Source: Saccoglossus kowalevskii (taxonomy: Eukaryota > Hemichordata > Enteropneusta > Harrimaniidae). From it: 58,416 nt of DNA. A model generated the notes under the pieces. It saw nothing but the letters and a program-made list of their open reading frames with translations. It was not told where the DNA came from and did not search any database. Below are positions 2,971-57,340 of the stretch, in pieces; position 1 is the stretch's first letter, and the number at the start of each line of letters is the position of its first letter. The DNA lies in NCBI RefSeq assembly GCF_000003605.2, contig NW_003108083.1, positions 447,067 through 505,482 on the forward strand. Reading direction: 5' to 3'. The position numbers and the translations under genes are program-made.

Positions 2971-5900
2971 GTGTATTCAAAATGGCTGATTTTGAATGCT
3001 GTTCCAGAGCAATATCTCTCAATATGGACAAGTACTTGTTTGACGATCAGATACAAATGTCAATCATTTTAATGTTAAAAAATCATATTCCTGACATGGT
3101 TATATTCCAGCTATATTACTATAAATAAAACTATATATCTTAAATTTGATAACTAACGAGGACTGTGCCATGCATGGCTGGTTTAGTATAGTTTCACGTA
3201 GCTGGATTTGTTTGATTTTATTGCTCATGAATCAGCTCATGGTAAACTACTTAAACAGTTTGAAATATGTCTGTGTACCTCTTTTTTTAGCTCCCCTGTC
3301 GACTTTGTCGAGCGGAGCTTATCATATGAGTGATTGTCTGTTGGCGTCCGGTGTCCATCGCCATCTGTCGTCCGTGTCAATGTTTTACTTTTTCAACTTC
3401 TTGAAAACTACATGCCTGAATGCTTTGATATTTGGTGTATATGTACCTTGGGTAGGCCTCTCTTAGATTTATTCATTTCATTATGATATCTTTAATTCTC
3501 TAAGTGAATATTTTTGTAATTTTTGGTAAAAAGTGATGTTTTTGACTTCTTGTTAAAAACTACAAGTCTGATTACTTTCATATTACATATATAGATACTA
3601 CATGTGGACCTTTCACAGATATGTACATTTCGTGATGATATCTTCAATTGTCTAATTTTGATGAATATTTTTGTAATTTTTGGTGAAAAGTGATATTTTC
3701 GAATTCTTGTTGAAAACAGCAAGTCCCATTGCATTGATACTATGCATATTGTTCATTTTCTAATGATATCTTCTGTTCTTTAATTGTAATGTGCATTGCT
3801 AACAGTGGAGCTATCTCAGCCGAGAGGCTGCTTGTTTTTTAATAAAATATACGTCCAGGCACAGTTTTATATTAACACAAGTTTTTTAAAAAAATCATTC
3901 AAAAGGCGTATTTTAATCAACAGTCTAATGTATTAACTATGTAATCAGCATACAATGGTATCCCATCTACTGTATCTAAGACAAAAATTTCTGTGACATT
4001 ATTTTTTTTCACATATGACCTATATTATCTATTTGCAAAATTTAAAATATAATTTTTATCAATAGAGTATGATATATTAACTATGTAATCTGCATACAGT
4101 GGTATCACATTTATCTGAAAAATTGGTATGTGACACCATTATTCTTTTTCACATATGACCTATATAATCTCTTTGCAAAATATAAATTACAAAGACTTGA
4201 AACTGTATTTATTGATCAACTTTGAAGTACTGTGAAATACTTTATTTTAGCTGGAATTAATTTTTGCTAAAAAAAACTTTTTGAGTGTTTTGTATGAAAT
4301 TTATTTTCACTGATTTCTGGCGAGTTGAATGTAAAATATAGGAAAAAAAGTATATTGCTGGATTTTATTTTCACTGAATCATTACTTCAGTGAAAATAGC
4401 GAAAATTAATTCCAAGCGAAAACAAGTATTTTACAGTATAATGATTGCCATGAGATGAGTGCATAATAAAGTCACACAGAGAATCATAAAATAAATGTCT
4501 GTGCTACAATATATCAGTGTTTTTAACAGTTAGTGAGTAAGAATAATATTTCATGATGTTTTGTTGTAGGCCCAGCTGAGTCATTGTTTGAGAAACCCTA
4601 TTATGAGTTAATGAAAGCAGCATTAAAACCAAATGGTATAGTCTGTACACAAGGTAAGGTATCTATAATTGTTGCCACGGCAACATAAAGAATTATTGTT
4701 AGTGTTAAGTTGTTGTCATACAACTGTTCATAGAAAATACTGATAATTAGAAAATTATCTTCAACCTGTGTTGCTTAGCAACACAAGTAATCATGATTAC
4801 TTAATATGTAGTCAATATTTTCAGCAAAATATGATTGTTAGATTTTTCTATCATGTTTCAATTATCAAAATATTTTTTTTTGGCACTTTAAAAACCATAA
4901 TTGACTTTTTTATTTTTTTACATAAAACATTCACATAATTAATATAGCCAATGTGAAATTGTCCTAAATTGTCATAAAAAATACAAGATTGTAAACCTTT
5001 TTCATTTAGAAATCCTTAATTAGATGCATACATGTAGTGTTAACTTGACAGTGTAGATAATTTGGAGAAGTCATATTAATAAGTGGGACTTGCAATCAGC
5101 AAATATAAACATTTTTTTGTGTGGTTAACTTATCCTGTGTATCATGCCTGTTCCATGTGATACAGCCCATTGGATACTTTTGTTTTCCTGACCCCAATGG
5201 GCTATTGATGAAGATGATTGGGTGATGCACTCAATTCAAAAGTGTGAGGTCATCTCCATAGATACCAAAACATGACTCATTTGACAACTTTGCAATTACC
5301 TTTTTTAATGGTACATGTATACATGTATGGTAAATATTAATGTTTATGCTATATGTACTGGTGTTTTTAAACATTCACCGACATCTGTTTTGATGTTAAA
5401 GTTGCATATACAGACTGTTATTTTTAATTCTGCCAACCTCAACTTTGCAATTTTCAAATGTCAAATGGCAATTACATGTAGATGTGCTATGCAGATCAAT
5501 CAGATCTGTTTGAACTCCTGCAGAACTTAACCAGGGTTTCCCCAAGGTCACATCCATTAGTTAATGAATCTTGGCCAGCAGATTTGGTCTTTCATTTGAG
5601 TCTTTGGCATACTAACCCATTTGTAGACCCAATTTTACAGGTTGTCTTAACACAGAAAATAAATAATAATTTCTCATGGTGGCTGACTAACTTAATCACC
5701 AAATAAAAAAATTTATTGCTGCAATCCCAGAAAAGTAAATTGTACATACACTGGACAACTTCAGAAATTATGTTTTGTTTGTTTTTGAAAACAGTTATGA
5801 TTTTTATTCACAATATATTCTAATTAAATTATAAAATGTAATACAGTTAGCAGTCTGTATATACATGTATAACTTAATATCACCACGCACATTGGTTAAT

Positions 5901-8900
5901 ATCTGAAAATAATGGTAAATAACAGAAACATTAATATATACCATATTCAAAAACATTATTGCAAAGTTGTGTGAATTGTATTTGACATACATTTGTATGT
6001 TGATCAAGCTCACAAATGATTTATTAAGTATAGCAATCTGAAATAGTTTTCTTTAGTTTAGTTTATGCTTCGAAACAGTGATTTACTATTAGAATGTTTA
6101 AAACACACTGTATATAATCACAAGATGGCAGACGTAGTCAGAAATGTACTAAAGCAAGTCATGATTGAATTAGTGAGTTGTTATTGTGATAATGCAAGAC
6201 AATAATAATGGTTCCCATACATACAAGTCATTTATGTTTAAAGTTTTTATGGAGAAAGGAGGCGTTTTCAAGAAAACTTAACATGCAAAATAATCAAAAA
6301 GCAGCCATTTGGAATCCATGTGAACACATTATTCTATGGATAGTCAAAATACTCCAATGTAGCCCTCATAATACTACATAACTTTTTTTTTAGCATAGTT
6401 TACCAAACAAAATTTTGAGATACATGTATGATGGAATGTTTTGGCCATAGTAATTGTAAATCACTCAAAACAAAATTTGGGTGAATTTTCGTTTTTTATT
6501 TAAAAAAAAAAATTCGCTATTTTTGTCCAAATCTTCTGAAGGACTATAGTGTAGACTATAAACAGAACTATTTTGTGATGAAAAGAGGGAACTGATGGTG
6601 AAAATGTTAAAGACATGAAAATAAGGTTAATAGAATATTATACATATATAAGACCTTTCTGACTGGCAGAATTTACTAAATTCTGATATTCAAATATGTC
6701 CAGACCCGTTTCTCAGAAATAAACAGGGCGACTCATTCAAAATTGTTATCAGGATCATGCATATTAGGTTTACAGGTACATGAGGGAAATGTAGAACTGT
6801 CATCTATTGTTTTAGAAAATTAGCATATCTATTTGCATATCTAATGATTGGCACCATTGACTATGAAGGGTATTGGCAGACATTTCTGACATGAATTGCG
6901 AGCCATGATAACCAGCCAAACAGTTGTATGGAATCCAGACTTGCCAAATTCAATCTACTGAAAATGTTTCTGAACATTTGTGCAGTGAATTAGGCGAAAT
7001 AAATTACCTGTTCATATACTAGTTCCTTGTAAACTCACTAAATGAATTCATTAGCAATATAGCCATATTTTTGGCACTTAGAAATATCATTTGGTACAAC
7101 AATTAATCATTGACTTTAGCCCATATCTCTAGCTGTCTATATGTATTTAGATATTTGACTTCAGTGGAGGAGGGGGGGTACCTGATAGTTTTTGGAATTA
7201 TGACTTTATTGCGTTAGTTTGATTCAAATGGCTAAATGGTATAGGAGAAATCAGCCATTGTTTCCATAGAAAGTTTAGATAACCTAACTTTTTTTTTTTC
7301 AATTTGATGAAACTTTCACATTTTATTTGATATCCTGGTCCATATTTACATTGACACTCATCAAAACTGTACATCTGTGTGTTCTAAGGTTCTAGTATTG
7401 TCCTGTTCGGTGATTGGGATTTACCTACATGTACATTTCCCGCACTATATGTTGTAAGCAGTTCAGTAAAACACAATTGCTCACAGTTGTATCTAGTACT
7501 TTAACAGCACAAAACATTATGACAAGGCGCAATGTAATTGTGATCATTGATCAAACTTACTTGCTTGCCTATGAAATGCATGACTGAATTTTAACACCGC
7601 TAGTCATTGTCAATATGTAAACATATGTGTACCTCTTCTAACTGTTGTGAACATTTCTAATGACAGTTAAACTTTGAACTACTATCATGTTCTTTTTCTT
7701 AACAGGAGAATGTCAATGGCTTCATCTTGATTTAATCAAAGAAATGACATCATTTTGTAAAACATTGTATCCAGTTGTTAGATATGGCTATTGTACTATT
7801 CCAACCTATCCCAGTGGCCAGATTGGCTTCATGCTTTGTAGTCTCAATCCAGTAAGTACCAGATTGGCTTTATGCTTTGTAGTCTCAATCCAGTAAGTAC
7901 CAGATTGGGTTTATGTTTTGTAGTCTCAATCCAGTAAGTACCAGATTGGCTTTATGCTTTGTAGTCTCAATCCAGTAAGTACCAGATTGGCTTTATGCTT
8001 TGTAGTCTCAATCCAGTAAGTACCAGATTGGCTTTATGCTTTGTAGTCTCAAATCCAGTAAGTACCAGATTGGCTTTATGCTTTGTAGTCTCAATCCAGT
8101 AAGTACCAGATTGGCTTTATGCTTTGTAGTCGCAATCCAGTAAGTACCAGATTGGCTTTATGCTTGTAGTCTCAATCCAGTAAGTACCAGATTGGCTTTA
8201 TGCTTTGTAGTCTCAAACCAGTAAGTACCAGATTGGCTTTATGCTTTGTAGTCTCAATCCAGTAAGTACCAGATTGGCTTTATGCTTTGTAGTTTCATTC
8301 CAGTAAGTGCCAGATTGGCTTTATGCTTTGTAGTCTCCATCCAGTAAGTACCAGATTGGCTTTATGCTTTGTAGTCTCAATCCAGTAAGTACCAGATTGG
8401 TTTTATGCTTTGTAATCTCAATCCAGTAAGTATCAGATTTGCTTTATGCTTTGTAGTCTCAATCCAGTAACTACCATATTGGCTTTATGCTTTGTAGTAC
8501 AATCAAATGTTCGTGTACATGGTATACATGTATGTTGTGCATGTTGCATACATTATGTAGTTTATTAATCCAGTAAGTACTAACATTGTATGACAGAATA
8601 GACAGACGGATTTGATAAGCCAAAGTGTGACAGAGTCAGAAATTACTAATTTGGGTTCTGTCTGTCTATGCAGAGCTACTTTTGACCAATCGTATTCAAT
8701 CTTTACACAAAGACTATGCATGATACCCTACATACTTGTATGTATTCAGTTTTCTTTAACAATTTGACTAAATATGGCTGATTAGCGATAATTTTCATTC
8801 TTCAATTTACTAAATTCTGATATTTGTGTAGATGTGTCAGGAACTGTTTATTTGAAAAGGCCTTGGTCGTTTCTTTCAAACTTTGTCATGATCGGTTTAT

Positions 8901-11350
8901 TGGGTTACAGGTGCACATACATTTTCAAGATTTGGACAAAATAGTGGCCATTTTGTTTTTATGCATGTCCATATCAATTCTTCATTGATCGCCTCATTCG
9001 GTTAAAAGTATTTATACTTTCTACTATACACAGATAATATTTGTTTAGTTTATAGGTATCTGACTTAAATCAAACACTATATTCCCAGTCTGTTAAAGTG
9101 CCTGAAACCATTTTTCTGAGTTGGACAGGACAATTTCATTCAAATTGCATTCGGAGTTACAGGTGCCTGTCATTTTTCAAAACAAAAATGGCCAACTGAC
9201 ACCCATTTCTGTTTATGGTTATCAGTGTTACTTTCTCTAAAATACAATGAAAAATACAATATTTAGTGTAAGCATGCATATGATGAAAGAGTCCCTTGGT
9301 GCTAAACATTGACTGACTATCTATAATACCAACTGGGGACTGTGCATTGACGATATTAAAAAAATAAAATTACTGTGTAAAAATTTGTGTATGCTTTTTC
9401 TGGTGGCTTCATGCATCAAAAATGAACATTGATCAAGTCTAGAAGTCACTATAATCACAAACTGCCTGACCAGATTGCCTATTCTGACACATGTTCACAT
9501 TAGGATTATTTGTTTTTCTTTTAATTTATATTTCAGAAAACTAAATTTAATGAACCAGTTAGAAAGTGGTCCAGAGAGGAACTAGAAAAGCTAAATCTAC
9601 GATATTACAATAGTGCAATACACAGTGCTGCATTTGTATTACCACAGTTTGTACACCAGGTAAAATGTTTTTCTTCATCATGGTCATAAACTCGCCATCA
9701 TTGCTGGACATAGTGATCCTCAATCATGTAGAGAAATTATGATATCATGTGAAATTATGCATTTTTATAAACAATTATTCTAAACTTATCATTCACAGTT
9801 TTGACTGATTTTGTTAGCTCTACTGTTGACTTTGTCAAGCGGAGCTTATACTACAATGTATGAGTGATTGTCCGTATCAACTTCTTACTTTTTCAACTTT
9901 TTCTTCTTGAAAATTACAAGCCTGAAGGCTTTGATATTTGGTGTATATGTACCTTGGGTAGACCTCTCAGATTTGTTCATTTCATGATGATAACTTCACT
10001 TCTCTAATTTTGATAAATATTTTTGGTAAAAAGTGATATTGGGCCATTCCAGTTTATATCTGCACCCCCCCCCCCCACTGTTGATGTGGTCTGTATGATG
10101 GGGAAAATACCCCGGAATTCCAACTGTATATGGAGAAACAGAATCTGGAAATCCAGATGAGTATGGAAAAAAAAATCCTGGAAATCCAGGCAGTTATGGC
10201 TACTAAATAAAATATGGCCTAGTTTATCTCTCCACATACCGGTTGATGAGTTTGAATTTCCAACAGTATGACTAAAAGAAAACTTGGAATTCTGACTGTA
10301 TATGGTAAAAAAATTGGGCCAGTATGAAATAGTTATTACTGAAATAACATTAGGATGGTGGCACGAATGAGCTCATCAACACCATGAATGAGGACTAGTT
10401 TGGATTTCCATTATCAAATATAAAATTTTGAACTTGGTAAATTAGCATATGATGAGAGTTGTATTTAGAAATCCTATTCTGTATGGTGGCACAATGGAAC
10501 TCATCAACACCATAAGTAGGAACTATAGTTTTGGATTTCTATTACTGTATGGTGAATGGTGATTTGGAAATAAAACCTTGTATGACTTGTACACCCATGG
10601 AAATTATACTCTGTATGAAGTAAACACACAAGCTCATCAACAGGGTGGAGGTGCAGATATAAACTGGAATGGCCCATTTTCAGATTCTTGTTGAAAACAG
10701 CAAGTCTGATTGCTTTGATACTATACATATTGTTCATTTTCTAATAATATCTTCTGTTTTTTAATTAAATTTGTTCATTGCTAACAGCGGAGCTATCTCA
10801 GCCGACAGGCTGCTTGTTTAAATTGGTTATAAATGAAGGCAGATCATAATAGTTAACATAATTATGTGCATCAATTCGTTTCAAATTTTGAATTAATATC
10901 ATTTATGTCGGCTTACTCACACATTACATTTACCTTTGCGATTGGATTGGTGGAAGTTTCTTTTATATTTTAAATGTATTAGCTTTTTTACATGTTTTGA
11001 TTTTGTTTAAATTAGGTAGAAAGCAAGGGTTTATGCACACTATAATACACCCAATGGCAGCTATTTTCCCACTGAAATACAATAACAGGCTTATAATATA
11101 TTTTAAACTTAGCATTCACATAGTACTGTTAGTGAACCAGAAATACTGAGTAGTTAGAAAGGTAGAAATACCAGTTTTTGTTTTGATGATTTGATATCAT
11201 TTCTGCTATGTCACCAAAGTCAATTCAGCTAAATACATTACACAACTTTATACGTTAACTCAAATTACAATGTTCAATGAAAATGAACCGTAATCTTTTT
11301 TCTCTTCAAAGATTATATTTGTTTTTTTACAGGAACTTCGAAAATTATAA
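1404..11350 (+). CDS. SRM: Spermidine synthase, 3' part (five coding exons)
   Basis: Spermidine synthase transfers an aminopropyl group from decarboxylated S-adenosylmethionine to putrescine, making spermidine in the cytosol. The window holds the C-terminal 174 codons in five exons: 1404-1557, 4570-4653, 7706-7851, 9537-9659 and 11333-11350. All have AG/GT borders and compatible phases (1, 1, 0, 0), and the last ends in TAA. Visible motifs are GDGFAF (the conserved GDG of the nucleoside pocket), [10 protein letters not shown] with the catalytic Asp, [11 protein letters not shown], and [10 protein letters not shown], which shapes the polyamine site. The last exon has only five codons (ELRKL). 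The N-terminal half lies upstream of position 1. No frameshift or stop was found, so the gene looks intact. Exon 7706-7851 is followed directly by a minisatellite that copies its 3' end (separate entry). Spermine synthase is less likely, because the sequence follows the shorter SRM form. Confidence 0.93.
1885..3190 (+). mobile_element. Helentron-like non-autonomous element, hairpin end plus 151-bp tandem core
   Basis: The left end is a strong hairpin: GTCCCCGTT (1885-1893) pairs with AACGGGGAC (1909-1917), followed by CTTATGTTTTGACC. The core from about 2040 to 2640 is a direct tandem repeat with a 151-bp period. Each unit has a GATTCAAGATGGCC..GGCGGCCATTTT block and a CAGATGGATTTTGTTCAAAC block; more diverged units run to about 2990. 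The right end, near 3150-3190, resembles those of two other copies (near 9336 and 34015). Hairpin end, tandem core and no coding capacity fit Helentron-associated elements (HINEs) of marine invertebrates; the class is inferred. Short open frames in the core are repeat artefacts. Confidence 0.6.
2936..2968. repeat. (TA)n microsatellite
   Basis: An uninterrupted TA dinucleotide run lies inside the tandem core of the hairpin-end element. Confidence 0.9.
3289..3836 (+). mobile_element. AGCTC-type hairpin-end element (uninterrupted copy)
   Basis: It begins with AGCTCC, a short GTCGAC/GTCGA stem and GGAGCT, and ends with GGAGCTATCTCAGCCGAGAGGCTGCTTGTTT, which holds an AGCC..GGCT hairpin. Inside are repeated blocks (TTTTTGGTAAAAAGTGAT, TTCTTGTTGAAAAC, TTTGATAT) about 150 bases apart. 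A second copy at 9816-10819 has the same ends and order but carries a nested insertion. No coding capacity. The Helentron/Helitron-like assignment is inferred from the end hairpins. Confidence 0.6.
4228..4438. mobile_element. Palindromic MITE with TA target sites
   Basis: The first ~37 bases (TACTGTGAAATACTT.. to ..GGAATTAATTTT) are the imperfect reverse complement of the last ~37 (AAAATTAATTCC.. to ..GTATTTTACAGTA). The complementarity continues inward through a TTTTCACTGA block, so most of the 211 bases can fold on itself. TA flanks both ends, as in Tc1/mariner-type MITEs. It lies in the SRM intron between exons 1404-1557 and 4570-4653. A related end (TTTTACAGTAT) is near 42040. Confidence 0.7.
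4654..7705. other. SRM intron, mostly unannotated
   Basis: No coding signal here. A weak inverted repeat (AGCCCATTGG / CCAATGGGCT) lies near 5165-5215. The stretch 6660-6810 resembles 8800-8930 (ACTAAATTCTGATAT, then TTACAGGT), so an old dispersed repeat is present in both. The rest shows only AT-rich sequence. Confidence 0.5.
7819..8510 (+). repeat. 41-bp minisatellite copying the SRM exon end and 5' splice site
   Basis: The last ~33 bases of SRM exon 7706-7851 and its splice donor are repeated head to tail about 16 times. The unit is CAGATTGGCTTTATGC..GTCTCAATCCAGTAAGTAC. The period is 41 bp, with single-base indels in a few units (near 8050 and 8165). The exon itself has GGCTTCATG, whereas the copies have GGCTTTATG, a silent change. 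Most copies keep an intact GTAAGTACC donor; the last ones decay (GTAACTACC near 8467). Because 41 is not a multiple of 3, splicing at the next donor would shift the reading frame. Confidence 0.95.
8740..9360 (+). repeat. Diverged copy of the ATGGCC tandem-core repeat family
   Basis: Units with TTACAGGTGCA, AATGGCCAACTG and CCATTT blocks recur loosely. The right end near 9336 (GGGGACTGTGCATTGACGAT) matches the ends of the hairpin elements at 3150 and 34015. The left hairpin is not recognisable, so this is an old, decayed copy. Confidence 0.4.
9816..10819 (+). mobile_element. AGCTC-type hairpin-end element, interrupted copy
   Basis: Same family as 3289-3836. It starts AGCTCTACTGTTGACTTTG and GGAGCTTAT, and ends GGAGCTATCTCAGCCGACAGGCTGCTTGTTT. 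After position 10040 it is interrupted by a 635-bp TIR element and resumes at 10679 with CAGATTCTTGTTGAAAACAG, as in the uninterrupted copy. It lies in the last SRM intron. Confidence 0.6.
10041..10675. mobile_element. Nested 635-bp TIR transposon with ATT target duplication
   Basis: The ends are perfect 26-bp inverted repeats starting GGGCCATTCCAGTTTATATC, extending imperfectly to about 46 bp. ATT precedes the left end (10038-10040) and follows the right end (10676-10678). The uninterrupted host copy at 3289-3836 reads GTGATATTTTC at the matching site, the expected empty site with a single ATT. Inside are two diverged copies of a GGTGGCAC..CTCATCAACACC block and a C homopolymer near 10066. 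It has no coding capacity. A 3-bp duplication with GG-starting TIRs would suit a PIF/Harbinger-type non-autonomous element; that class is inferred. Confidence 0.75.
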
Positions 11351-14939: not shown

Positions 14940-15840
14940 ATGCTACCCAATCGGTGTGGTCTCCATTTCCGATACCAAGGCAAGGTATGGGTCGAAACTG
15001 CACGCCTGACCGGATCCTGCAAGGTGGAAGCAATCCAACAAAAGGTATACAGTTTGCTCACAAAGGGCACTATACACTGGATAAGAGACCCTGCTATAAA
15101 CCTGGGCTTCTACTCACAAGTGTTTGTAGTTCCAAAGGCTGCAGGTGACTGGCGTCCAGTTCTGGACTTAAGCAGTATATGCTTCTCAATCGATATTGCA
15201 TGGAAACACCAAGCACCGTTTTACTCTCTGTGCACATTTTTGACTGGTTAGCATCACTAGACTTAAGCGATGCTTACATGTACCTCCACATACCAATGCA
15301 CCCAGCAAGTGAGTGACAGTGATTCGCCCAATTGGGCCAAGTATTTGAGTTCAGGTACTTCCTTTCGGGTTATGCATGGCTCCATACGTGTTCAAACAGG
15401 TGGTGCTGCTGCTGCACCGGGTGTCGGTACACATCAACCCATACTTAGACGACTGGTTGCTACACAACCAAAACAAGGGGTTGTTGGCCAAGCAAGTAAG
15501 GCTAACATGGGATTCACTACACCAGTTGGGCTTCCAGGTAAATCGAGAAATGTCCCATCCCCACACAACACAGCAGTTGGTGTTACTCGGCATGAAGTTT
15601 GACATGGAAGCAGGCTTGGTACAGTCATCACAGGCTAGTTGTCGGGCACTAAGTGACCTAGCTGAACGTCTAGTCAGACCTCTCCCGGTCTCTTTCCGAC
15701 AGCTGATGCATATCATTGGATTGATGGCGTCAGTTCACAGGGTAGTTCCCCAAGCTGCATTACGCAGCAGAACTGCAGAGGTAAGTAACTCTCGCGGACC
15801 AAGAGATGGATGCCTTATCCTGATGGATGGCAATTGACAA
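14940..15840 (+). pseudogene. DIRS-type reverse transcriptase, frameshifted
   Basis: Three overlapping frames give the polymerase in order. 14940-15251 has LLTKGTIHWIRDP..GFYSQVFVVPK and GDWRPVLDLS (fingers). About 15240-15310, in another frame, has LASLDLSDAYMYLHIP (first catalytic Asp). 15376-15837 has MAPYVFKQV, then PYLDDWLLHNQ (YLDD catalytic pair), LGFQVNREMSH, LVLLGMKF and RQLMHIIGLMAS. The YLDDWLL and LGFQVN..S patterns are typical of DIRS/Ngaro-like polymerases rather than LINEs or Gypsy. At least two frame changes show it is dead. It ends soon after the thumb-like region; no RNase H DAS..G motif follows. Confidence 0.85.
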
Positions 15841-54500: not shown

Positions 54501-57340
54501 ATTTTGTTGAAATAAAATATATATGCCCGCCTTAAGCATTACTATCAGCACTGCGACTGTTTAATTGCATGACTGTGTAAATATGAATATTTACTATATG
54601 GTGATCAATAGGATTGCTCATATATGCATTGTCAATTTATTTGCAAATGAGCGAACAAAAGAGATAGAACGACAGAAATGGTATCAGGCATCTCCAAACA
54701 TTTGGCCAGGGTCATACATTGCAGTTCAGGATTATTTCGTTAAGTTAATGATTGTTATATTATTCCCGTTATCTTTCGTAATATAAAAAACACCTATAAA
54801 ATCAGACAAAGACGATGGTATCTTAAATTTAATCTTGATCGAAGAATGAATGCGTCAAGTCTACGCTAATTTAGCGCTACTACAACTCACGATCCTTTAA
54901 TCATATTGTTTAAGGACAATAATCGTCAACTTTATTTACAGTATTATGCAAATAAGGAAATTAAGTACTGTACATTTTAAAATGATGTTTTACATGCAAA
55001 CAAACAGACAATATGGTTCACACGATTCGTACTTACGATCGCGGCAATTGCCACGTCATTGGTGCGGCTTGAAAAACAAATTCAGTTCAGGCAGTAGTTC
55101 ATTACAACACATCAATGGCCAAATGCAAACTAATGGCGAGGTTAACGGAGGATGTGGTTTTCATTTCGATTAACATTCACAGGATAGTTTGTCTTGCGTC
55201 TTAAACCTGCAATAAAACACAATCTTATACCATTTCAATAAACGCTCAATACAAAAGTGCTGATAAATCATATTAAATTGATGTCATAAATGAAGTATAA
55301 CAATGTATATATCTCATAATCACACCGCCTACGGCATTTAACCAATATATTCCTTTTAAAGGCATGCAACGATGTGTATTATGATTTATGGTGTATGTAA
55401 TTTAGAGATGGTACACTGGTTTTCTTTTTCATGCATATCGCAGGTTATTGCTTTGATTATCATAGCCGACTGTTCACTCAAAATCAGAGTACAACTTTCC
55501 ATGCAATTCATACATGAGGTTTGTGAAACTGGTTAACTCTTACTAAACCTCACAGCTACGTTGCGATAATCCGGTGTGTTGCTGTGCAGGTACTATTTAG
55601 AACAAAGAAAAGGTACTTCCACTAAAACAGTGAACGAAAACTGCAGCTGCCGAGGGGTGACTTTTTCACGCATCTTGGAGGTTATTGATTCGATTACCGC
55701 AGCCCACTTTCGGCTCAAAATTATAAATAAAAGTACAATGTTCTCTGCCATTCAAAGCCGCTGATAGTTTAGAAAACTGGGAAATTCTTAATAAACCAGA
55801 TTGCTATGTGGTTTGAATTTAGCATGTTGCTGCTCAGGTATTGTTTGAAACAAAGCAAAAGTACTCCAAATGAGACACTGAACGAAAACTTCCGCTGCCG
55901 AAGGGAGGCATACTGTTCAAACTTCAGAGACGAGCCAGAAAATGTATCATCATAAACGCTAGAGTTCTATTCATCGCAATGCAAATCGTAATTCTATATA
56001 TGAGAAGGTATCCCATTTGTTGATCGAACTGGCGATCATGCCATCAAATCGCATACCGGATGACGCTCAGGCACCTTCTATGTGAATATAGAGATGGTAA
56101 CTAGGGAAACGTGATCAGCGGATAAATGACATATTAATAGACGAGTGACAGGAAACTGGATTTTTTGCATAGCAAAGCATTACGTCTCCCTGTGTTATGT
56201 CCTTGTGTAATTATATTTATATGCATCCAAACGAGTTTCCCTTCACTCATCTATTATTGTCTATTTAGTGTATTCTCGTGCATATGACGTGACGACGACT
56301 TTATTCAAAGGTTTACATCTGTTTAGCCATCTCTACAAAATTCCATATATATTAGGGGTTACATGCACTGTCTATTGAATACCAAAATCATGGTTTGAAC
56401 CAAGCTTAGAAATCCTATTAAATAAATAACAGAACTTTGACGCATGTCTAATATTCTAAAGCGTGACCTTTGACTAATATCTAAGCTCGAAAATGCCTGA
56501 CAGTAAGTGTGCACCTTGTCAGTCTTCATTTCCACGATACAAAACTGTAGTTAAGACTGGACAATTATAACCTCTGTGGCGATGGCAGAAAACATATGGA
56601 AAATATTTGTTTTCCTTTACTTACTTGTTTGCTATTTGTTTCAATGATGAATTCGCTGTAATTTTTTATTTCCTCTGAGTGGAATATTTTTCTCCCCAAG
56701 ACTATATTCTGTTTCTCATTGCCAACAATTGGTTTGTGTCAAATGATGCACGTAACATGGTGTACTTTTGACGCGACCTTGAATTACCTCTCTTATGCAT
56801 CCGTGTATAAAGCATTATATTAACCTCACCATAATTATCCAATGAATGTACTTTTTTTTTGCTTCTACGGAATTATGGGGCATATGGAATCGGAAGCAAT
56901 TTTGAACAATTTATTTTGACCAGTATATATGATCGTTCCACTAAACAATTACTAGTGTAATCAGAATAATTATTATAACGACCGGGAAGTATTTTCTAAA
57001 GCTTAATGGTGGTGCTGGTAAAAATCGGGTTGTTAAATTCAATAATTATGGGTTTATGATACGTTTATGCTTAGTAAGTACATAATAAGATAATTGCGAT
57101 TTTTTGAAGCCAATTTAGCACATTATGTGTCCACTCAGCTCAAATACATTCAGTACGATAGCAATATAATATAAATGCTTTCTGTTTCTGTGTTTTTTTT
57201 CCAGTAGACAATAAACACGAGAAACATAAATATATACTATATAATGGTGCTAAAATTAATTAGCTAAACACATTTTAATTATATGTAATTTATGTATAAT
57301 CACTACCATGGGGTTTTCTCTTTTATTCAATCTTGATTCA
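51529..57340. other. Intron of the GPCR gene and/or intergenic
   Basis: No further GPCR exon is recognisable. A candidate tiny first exon (CTCATGGAAAATTTA|GTGAGT, ATG at about 53530) is preceded by CCTGGCAACC but has no supported partner. A diverged tandem duplication lies at 55441-55920 (separate entry). Confidence 0.35.
55441..55925 (+). repeat. Diverged tandem duplication, period about 248 bp
   Basis: GTGTTGCTGTGCAGGTACTATTTAGAACAAAG..GTGAACGAAAACTGCAGCTGCCGA (55575-55660) is repeated as ATGTTGCTGCTCAGGTATTGTTTGAAACAAAG..CTGAACGAAAACTTCCGCTGCCGA (55824-55905). The upstream parts also pair: TTATTGCTTTGATTATCATAGCC with TTATTGATTCGATTACCGCAGCC. Many substitutions indicate age. No frame is conserved. 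Confidence 0.75.

Follow-up and report, generated by a model that had tools for sequence, protein, structure and literature searches.

How should one understand an intron that opens with repeated copies of its own 5' splice site? This question is raised by a gene of the hemichordate Saccoglossus kowalevskii, in which the end of an exon and the first bases of the adjoining intron are reiterated in a long tandem array. If the spliceosome could use the copies, the array might serve as a regulatory device, whereas a chance origin at an exon border would call for no function at all. We addressed the issue within a window of 58,416 nucleotides, to which all coordinates below refer unless a contig is named, and within the genome assembly from which it derives.

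The gene carrying the array encodes spermidine synthase (SRM) on the + strand, and four of its exons were located in the window. The array-bearing exon (7706–7851, 146 nt) was recognized from its translation and protein matches; it follows an AACAG acceptor ending at 7705, terminates in CCA, and its last 33 nt form the exonic portion of the repeat unit. The intron that begins with the array (7852–9536) closes with the acceptor ATTTCAG and is followed in phase 0 by exon 9537–9659 (KTKFNEPV...FVHQ; donor CCAG|GTAAAA). Upstream, and on the same strand, lie exons 1404–1557 (donor ATAG|GTAAGT) and 4570–4653 (donor CAAG|GTAAGG). Exon 7706–7851 matches Pfam PF01564 by itself, and its joint translation with exon 9537–9659 matches the solved spermidine synthase 2o05, which we take to be the human enzyme, with an E value of 1.5e-39 over residues 1–87 of 89. 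A PF01564 search of the assembly returned three matches, all of them exons of the window's gene, and thus no second spermidine synthase was found there. N-terminal SRM exons were not found in the window or in two 10-kb stretches upstream, and a weak candidate tblastn match at 54670–54729 (E 0.5) was dropped as a chance hit.

The assembly also contains mitochondrial DNA, of which 16,363 of 17,037 bp were read. Its protein genes, recognized from their translations and in the case of cox1 additionally by Pfam, run cox2-atp6-cox3-nad3-nad4L-nad4-nad5-cob on one strand, with nad6 and cox1 on the opposite strand, nad2 preceding nad1 and a tRNA-Lys whose anticodon is TTT. In a codon count over nine genes, delimited by eye, AGG occurs 0 times, AAA 45 times and AGA 4 times. 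The available text of a paper on Rhabdopleura mitochondria (PMC3121625) reports for S. kowalevskii an inverted COX1 and a moved ND1 or ND2 relative to Balanoglossus, UUU in tRNA-Lys, AAA read as Lys and an absence of AGG; both the gene order and the codon use observed here agree with it, a match that fits a Saccoglossus acorn worm best.

The repeat unit itself measures 41 bp, composed of 33 bp of exon end and 8 bp of intron start, arranged head-to-tail. Tandem Repeats Finder (TRF) reported it at 7818–8498 (period 41, 16.6 copies, 95% matches) with a score of 1241, the highest among its 16 rows for the window. Counted copy by copy, there are 16 full units at 7819–8474, 14 of them 41 bp in length, one 42 and one 40. 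These two approaches confirm the central claim of the first-pass annotation, namely that an exon end is repeated in tandem together with its own 5' splice site, but its estimate of about 16 copies after the true donor must be adjusted to 15 full copies plus an interrupted remnant. Copy 1 (7819–7859) is the authentic exon end with the 5' splice site at 7852. Copies 2–16 (7860–8474) each present a donor-like CCA|GTAAGT (GTAACT in copy 16), at 7893, 7934, 7975, 8016, 8058, 8099, 8140 and 8180 for copies 2–9 and at 8221, 8262, 8303, 8344, 8385, 8426 and 8467 for copies 10–16. Copy 17 is split: its 5' part (8475–8498) is separated by a 63-bp insert (8499–8561) from its displaced 3' end, AATCCAGTAAGTAC (8568–8581), which contains a further decoy donor at 8573. 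GTAGT is found both at the end of the insert and immediately before it, and BLAST detected no second full copy of the insert in the window. The sequence directly after 8568–8581, TAACATTG, is likely to be the original intron sequence past the array. An 18-base word spanning the repeat junction occurs exactly 13 times in the 572-Mb assembly, always within the SRM array; by this measure, which registers exact matches only, no second haplotype carrying the word was found in the assembly.

In total, 17 CCA|GTAAGT or GTAACT sites lie between 7852 and 8573, including the true donor, and of the 16 GT sites downstream of it in like context, the full copies contribute 15 and the remnant the last. GTAAGT is broken in copy 16 but preserved in copies 1–15 as well as in the remnant; the exact sequence CCAGTAAGTACC is present in 13 of the 16 full-copy donors, with copies 12, 15 and 16 deviating. 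The U1 genes of this organism, read at 4 loci, start with ATACTTACCTG, and we used pairing with U1 to judge the strength of the sites. (U1 snRNA genes occur in a long tandem series about 790 bp apart on contig C876, loci L034–L037; C876 accounts for 35 of the 42 U1 matches scored, which are spread over three contigs.) An exon end in CA rather than AG limits the pairing of the array donor with U1 to -7.0 kcal/mol, where a full consensus reaches -14.0; at the remaining three SRM donors located, the preceding exon does end in AG. The deviating copies 12, 15 and 16 reach -6.7, -7.5 and -1.9 kcal/mol, respectively. Outside of the array, 70 of 3411 GTs on the + strand pair with U1 equally well or better, and therefore the array sites are real but ordinary donors. 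The description of these sites as near-perfect U1 targets was consequently overstated, since positions +1 to +7 pair while -1 and -2 do not, and scoring of each copy yields moderate donors equal to the true one, with copy 16 weaker. Nor does predicted RNA structure offer a robust reason why the decoys would be hidden: by its probability of being unpaired, the true donor took rank 2, 2, 4, 5 and 10 of 17 across five settings, and the idea was rejected, as this rank was not robust to the settings.

Two proposals concern U1. One is that the array acts as a U1 decoy, which is unlikely given that its sites are ordinary (-7.0 kcal/mol, equaled or exceeded at 70 of 3411 other GTs). A few added sites on one transcript would make an implausible sink for U1, and on this inference together with the ordinary site strength we rejected the array as a global sink. 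The other is local: extra U1 bound within the intron could strengthen recognition of the exon or block premature polyadenylation. Pairing of at least 7 bp at 16 of the 17 sites (true donor counted; one via G-U) and an AATAAA at 9363 followed by a GT-rich tail, located downstream in the array intron, speak for such a platform, but the sites remain ordinary at -7.0 kcal/mol, and AATAAA occurs in the window at 1.39 per kb, so its single occurrence in an intron of 1.7 kb is unremarkable. Telescripting was rejected on the grounds that intronic AATAAA is no more frequent than expected, and we regard a local U1 platform as highly improbable.

The coding consequences of decoy usage are uniform. Splicing from the first decoy would lengthen the exon by 41 nt, and a stop codon would then start at nt 47 of the next exon; each decoy from the second onward brings in a TAA 42 nt beyond the true exon end. 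All 16 downstream GT sites therefore yield a premature stop and none a usable protein, which bears out the prediction that every alternative donor would be unproductive. The accompanying detail, a TAA met in the second unit, holds from the second decoy on, but for the first decoy the stop falls in the next exon. Whether the first-decoy product would be subject to nonsense-mediated decay (NMD) depends upon a further exon downstream of 9537–9659.

Unproductive splicing controls polyamine genes elsewhere, as in the case of SAT1, and this precedent, together with the universal premature stops and a U1 pairing similar to that of the true donor at 15 of the 16 downstream sites (all but copy 16), speaks for graded unproductive splicing, in which some transcripts would use decoys and the length of the array would set the yield of spermidine synthase via NMD. 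Conversely, the donors display no signal of selection, the donor of copy 16 is already broken, and the amphioxus parallels discussed below are reported, in the available parts of that literature, not to mis-splice. We consider this explanation very unlikely. A further version, a length-tunable brake whereby copy number would set the proportion of dead-end splicing and hence the amount of enzyme through NMD, seems decidedly unlikely; if it were true, differences in array length between individuals or cells would translate into different amounts of spermidine synthase. Judged from sequence, graded mis-splicing could be regulatory but lacks support, and the same applies to the nonsense-mediated control suggested in the first-pass annotation, as the donors lack a conservation signal and amphioxus mRNA is reported as normal.

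The divergence among the copies is informative in this regard. Relative to their consensus, copies 2–16 contain 13 substitutions and 2 single-base indels, none of which is shared between copies. Ten of the 13 substitutions are located in the 33 exon-derived positions of the 41-bp unit and 3 in the 8 intronic bases, while the donor 9-mer holds only one (binomial P of <=1 = 0.19). With numbers this small (13 substitutions), the donors appear neither purged nor protected beyond the rest of the unit, and the divergence among copies 2–16 looks neutral. A certain polarity is seen along the array, as copies 2–9 hold 3 substitutions and copies 10–16 hold 10 (Fisher P = 0.045, a weak and post hoc result). 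The private variants also bear upon the possibility of an assembly artefact, with a wrong copy number or a misassembled array. The sequence does come from a single assembly, and one amphioxus mirage was wrongly assembled in a draft genome, according to the available text of PMC3087553. However, 9 of the 15 later full copies carry substitutions or indels of their own, which artificial repetition of one unit would not produce; moreover, the flanks are dissimilar to the unit. An artefact is thus disfavored and in our estimate extremely unlikely.

As for origin, the array continues directly from the exon, and at its far end (8568–8581) it passes into unrelated intron, which is the border pattern that a tandem border duplication predicts. 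This anatomy supports derivation of the array from a duplicated border unit. Presumably, a tandem duplication of a segment across the exon-intron border (33 exonic and 8 intronic bp) came first, and the copy number then grew through slippage or unequal exchange, as is ordinary for minisatellites; copy 1 would have been kept by coding selection as the exon end while the intronic copies drifted. At one position the exon has C, and all 15 later full copies as well as the truncated copy 17 have T. Descent of all copies from a single duplicated unit, which had been concluded from this shared T, is plausible but not forced, because either the exon C or the array T could be ancestral.

Arrays of this kind are not without precedent. 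In amphioxus, "mirages" have been described as minisatellite-like tandem duplications across exon-intron borders in Adh3 and the globins BflGb6 and BflGb9, with somatically unstable units of 10–72 bp in Adh3 and units of 150–160 bp in the globins (PMC3087553, available portions). In those same portions, both the evidence from Adh3 and RT-PCR on the globins pointed to undisturbed regular splicing, although the authors noted that the copies could act as cryptic splice sites. A second report, as far as its available text extends, found no aberrant mRNAs from the Adh and troponin C mirages and described further, imperfect mirages in PGBD5 (PMC3902484). The SRM array shares with amphioxus mirages a unit that spans the border and joins the exon end to the start of the intron, a terminal copy that is the authentic border (copy 1), a diverged far edge and a splice signal within the copies, GTAAGT being retained in copies 2–15 and the remnant but not in copy 16. 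It differs in belonging to a hemichordate, in affecting spermidine synthase, and in its 41-bp unit and 16 full copies. Its variants are all private, and hence the homogenization between neighbors described for BflGb6 is not seen.

Other systems provide partial parallels. The minisatellite of human IFI6 (6-16) likewise places a donor in each repeat beside the true donor, with two of the downstream units serving as donors for isoforms (Turri et al. 1995, in the available account of PMC4526556). Whereas the IFI6 repeats give isoforms, the SRM decoys would all give premature stops, and protein variants of the IFI6 type would not be among their products. Intron gain by tandem AG/GT duplication, as available descriptions present it, similarly involves a duplicated segment that includes splice signals, but it creates a new intron, whereas the SRM array lengthened an existing one with no new intron position evident. 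The array could nonetheless be viewed as a source from which a new intron or exon might evolve, an inner copy becoming an exon if an acceptor arises. Its anatomy corresponds to that of the amphioxus globin model (PMC3087553, available portions); however, read-through hits a stop in every case tested and the unit length is not divisible by three, so that the capture of a copy would tend to disrupt the protein. We consider this outcome extremely unlikely.

Whether border arrays are frequent in this genome was approached with several surveys. In the window, 6 TRF rows reach 100 bp or more with a period of 10 or more; two of them represent one array, which leaves 5 distinct arrays, and many minisatellites surround myosin exons. 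Among 30 myosin loci, drawn from 56 matches, situated on 11 contigs (some of the loci overlap, and 3% of the sequence is N) and tested by TRF within 120 bp of the match and by self-BLAST, with the six loci near an array also read by eye, no array with the exon edge in its unit was detected. In 20 of the 143 kinase matches listed, taken with 200 bp on each side, neither TRF nor repeated 14-mers revealed a repeat touching the match edge; as a positive control, the same tests recovered the array-bearing SRM exon. The other three SRM exons lack a comparable array by TRF and by a repeated-sequence test. These 50 myosin and kinase matches, whose edges are not always exon edges, are compatible with border arrays at a frequency of a few per cent. 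Genome-wide, a pattern of three AGGTAAGT separated by gaps of 10–40 bp occurred 417 times forward and 699 times in reverse, and since the reversed pattern yielded 1046 and 565, there is no excess of donor arrays. The SRM array itself falls outside this pattern, its donor being CAGTAAGT. Four donor-bearing arrays with AGGTAAGT in the unit were inspected, and no clear coding exon was found upstream of them.

Several of the other repeats encountered merit description. Another SRM intron contains a 151-bp tandem array (2040–2943), which looks like a member of a dispersed tandem family, because a 91–93% identical stretch sits in reverse orientation in an array near a myosin exon (contig C559, L055 985–1342). 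On contig C464 (L043 1787–2804, the same as L068 469–1486), a 72-bp, 14-copy minisatellite fills most of a myosin intron, starting about 15 bp inside it and ending about 60 bp before the next exon; this is the myosin array nearest to an exon edge. A 31-bp, 22-copy minisatellite (L051 1710–2404) ends about 30 bp upstream of a myosin exon acceptor. Additionally, the window contains a reading frame at 15349–15837 that resembles a mobile-element reverse transcriptase (weak Pfam RVT_1, E 0.0014, below the curated cut-off).

Taken together, we conclude with a probability of roughly 0.82, based upon sequence comparisons, that the SRM array is a neutral mirage, a minisatellite seeded by chance from an exon-intron border. 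As the genome is rich in minisatellites, one lying on an exon border needs no special cause, and as amphioxus boundary repeats are reported, within the text available, without disturbance of splicing, the array looks like a further example of a known oddity rather than a new control device. Most likely, the spliceosome would keep using the donor at 7852, which is favored since it alone closes the 146-nt exon beside its own acceptor with the full exon sequence; exon definition is the basis for expecting the first donor to be chosen. Occasional use of a decoy would produce a premature-stop mRNA, presumably destroyed. The array would have no regulated job, and its main consequence would probably be a length-unstable intron in a metabolic gene. 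Against this neutral reading, the decoys pair with U1 like the true donor and sit nearer to the acceptor. Work by Eperon and colleagues reportedly implies that, among several sites occupied by U1, one lying downstream can prevail. The equal U1 pairing, the proximity to the acceptor and this work mean that the silence of the intact decoys, 14 of them in full copies and a fifteenth in the remnant, needs explaining: a faithful cell must ignore 15 intact donors that are closer to the acceptor than the true one. Nor did the 50 sampled myosin and kinase matches yield a second border array that would parallel the recurrence known from amphioxus.

The array extends exon-border minisatellites from cephalochordates, in which published descriptions were found, to a hemichordate; no report of hemichordate mirages was found in the open-licence literature, which misses most subscription journals. 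It also constitutes a natural test of 5' splice site choice, in which a true donor is followed by 14 full-copy decoys with nearly equal 33-nt exonic context and U1 pairing, leaving position as the main difference. If splicing of spermidine synthase is faithful, then position and exon definition decide the choice of donor; if it is not, the use of decoys should be readable as a function of distance.
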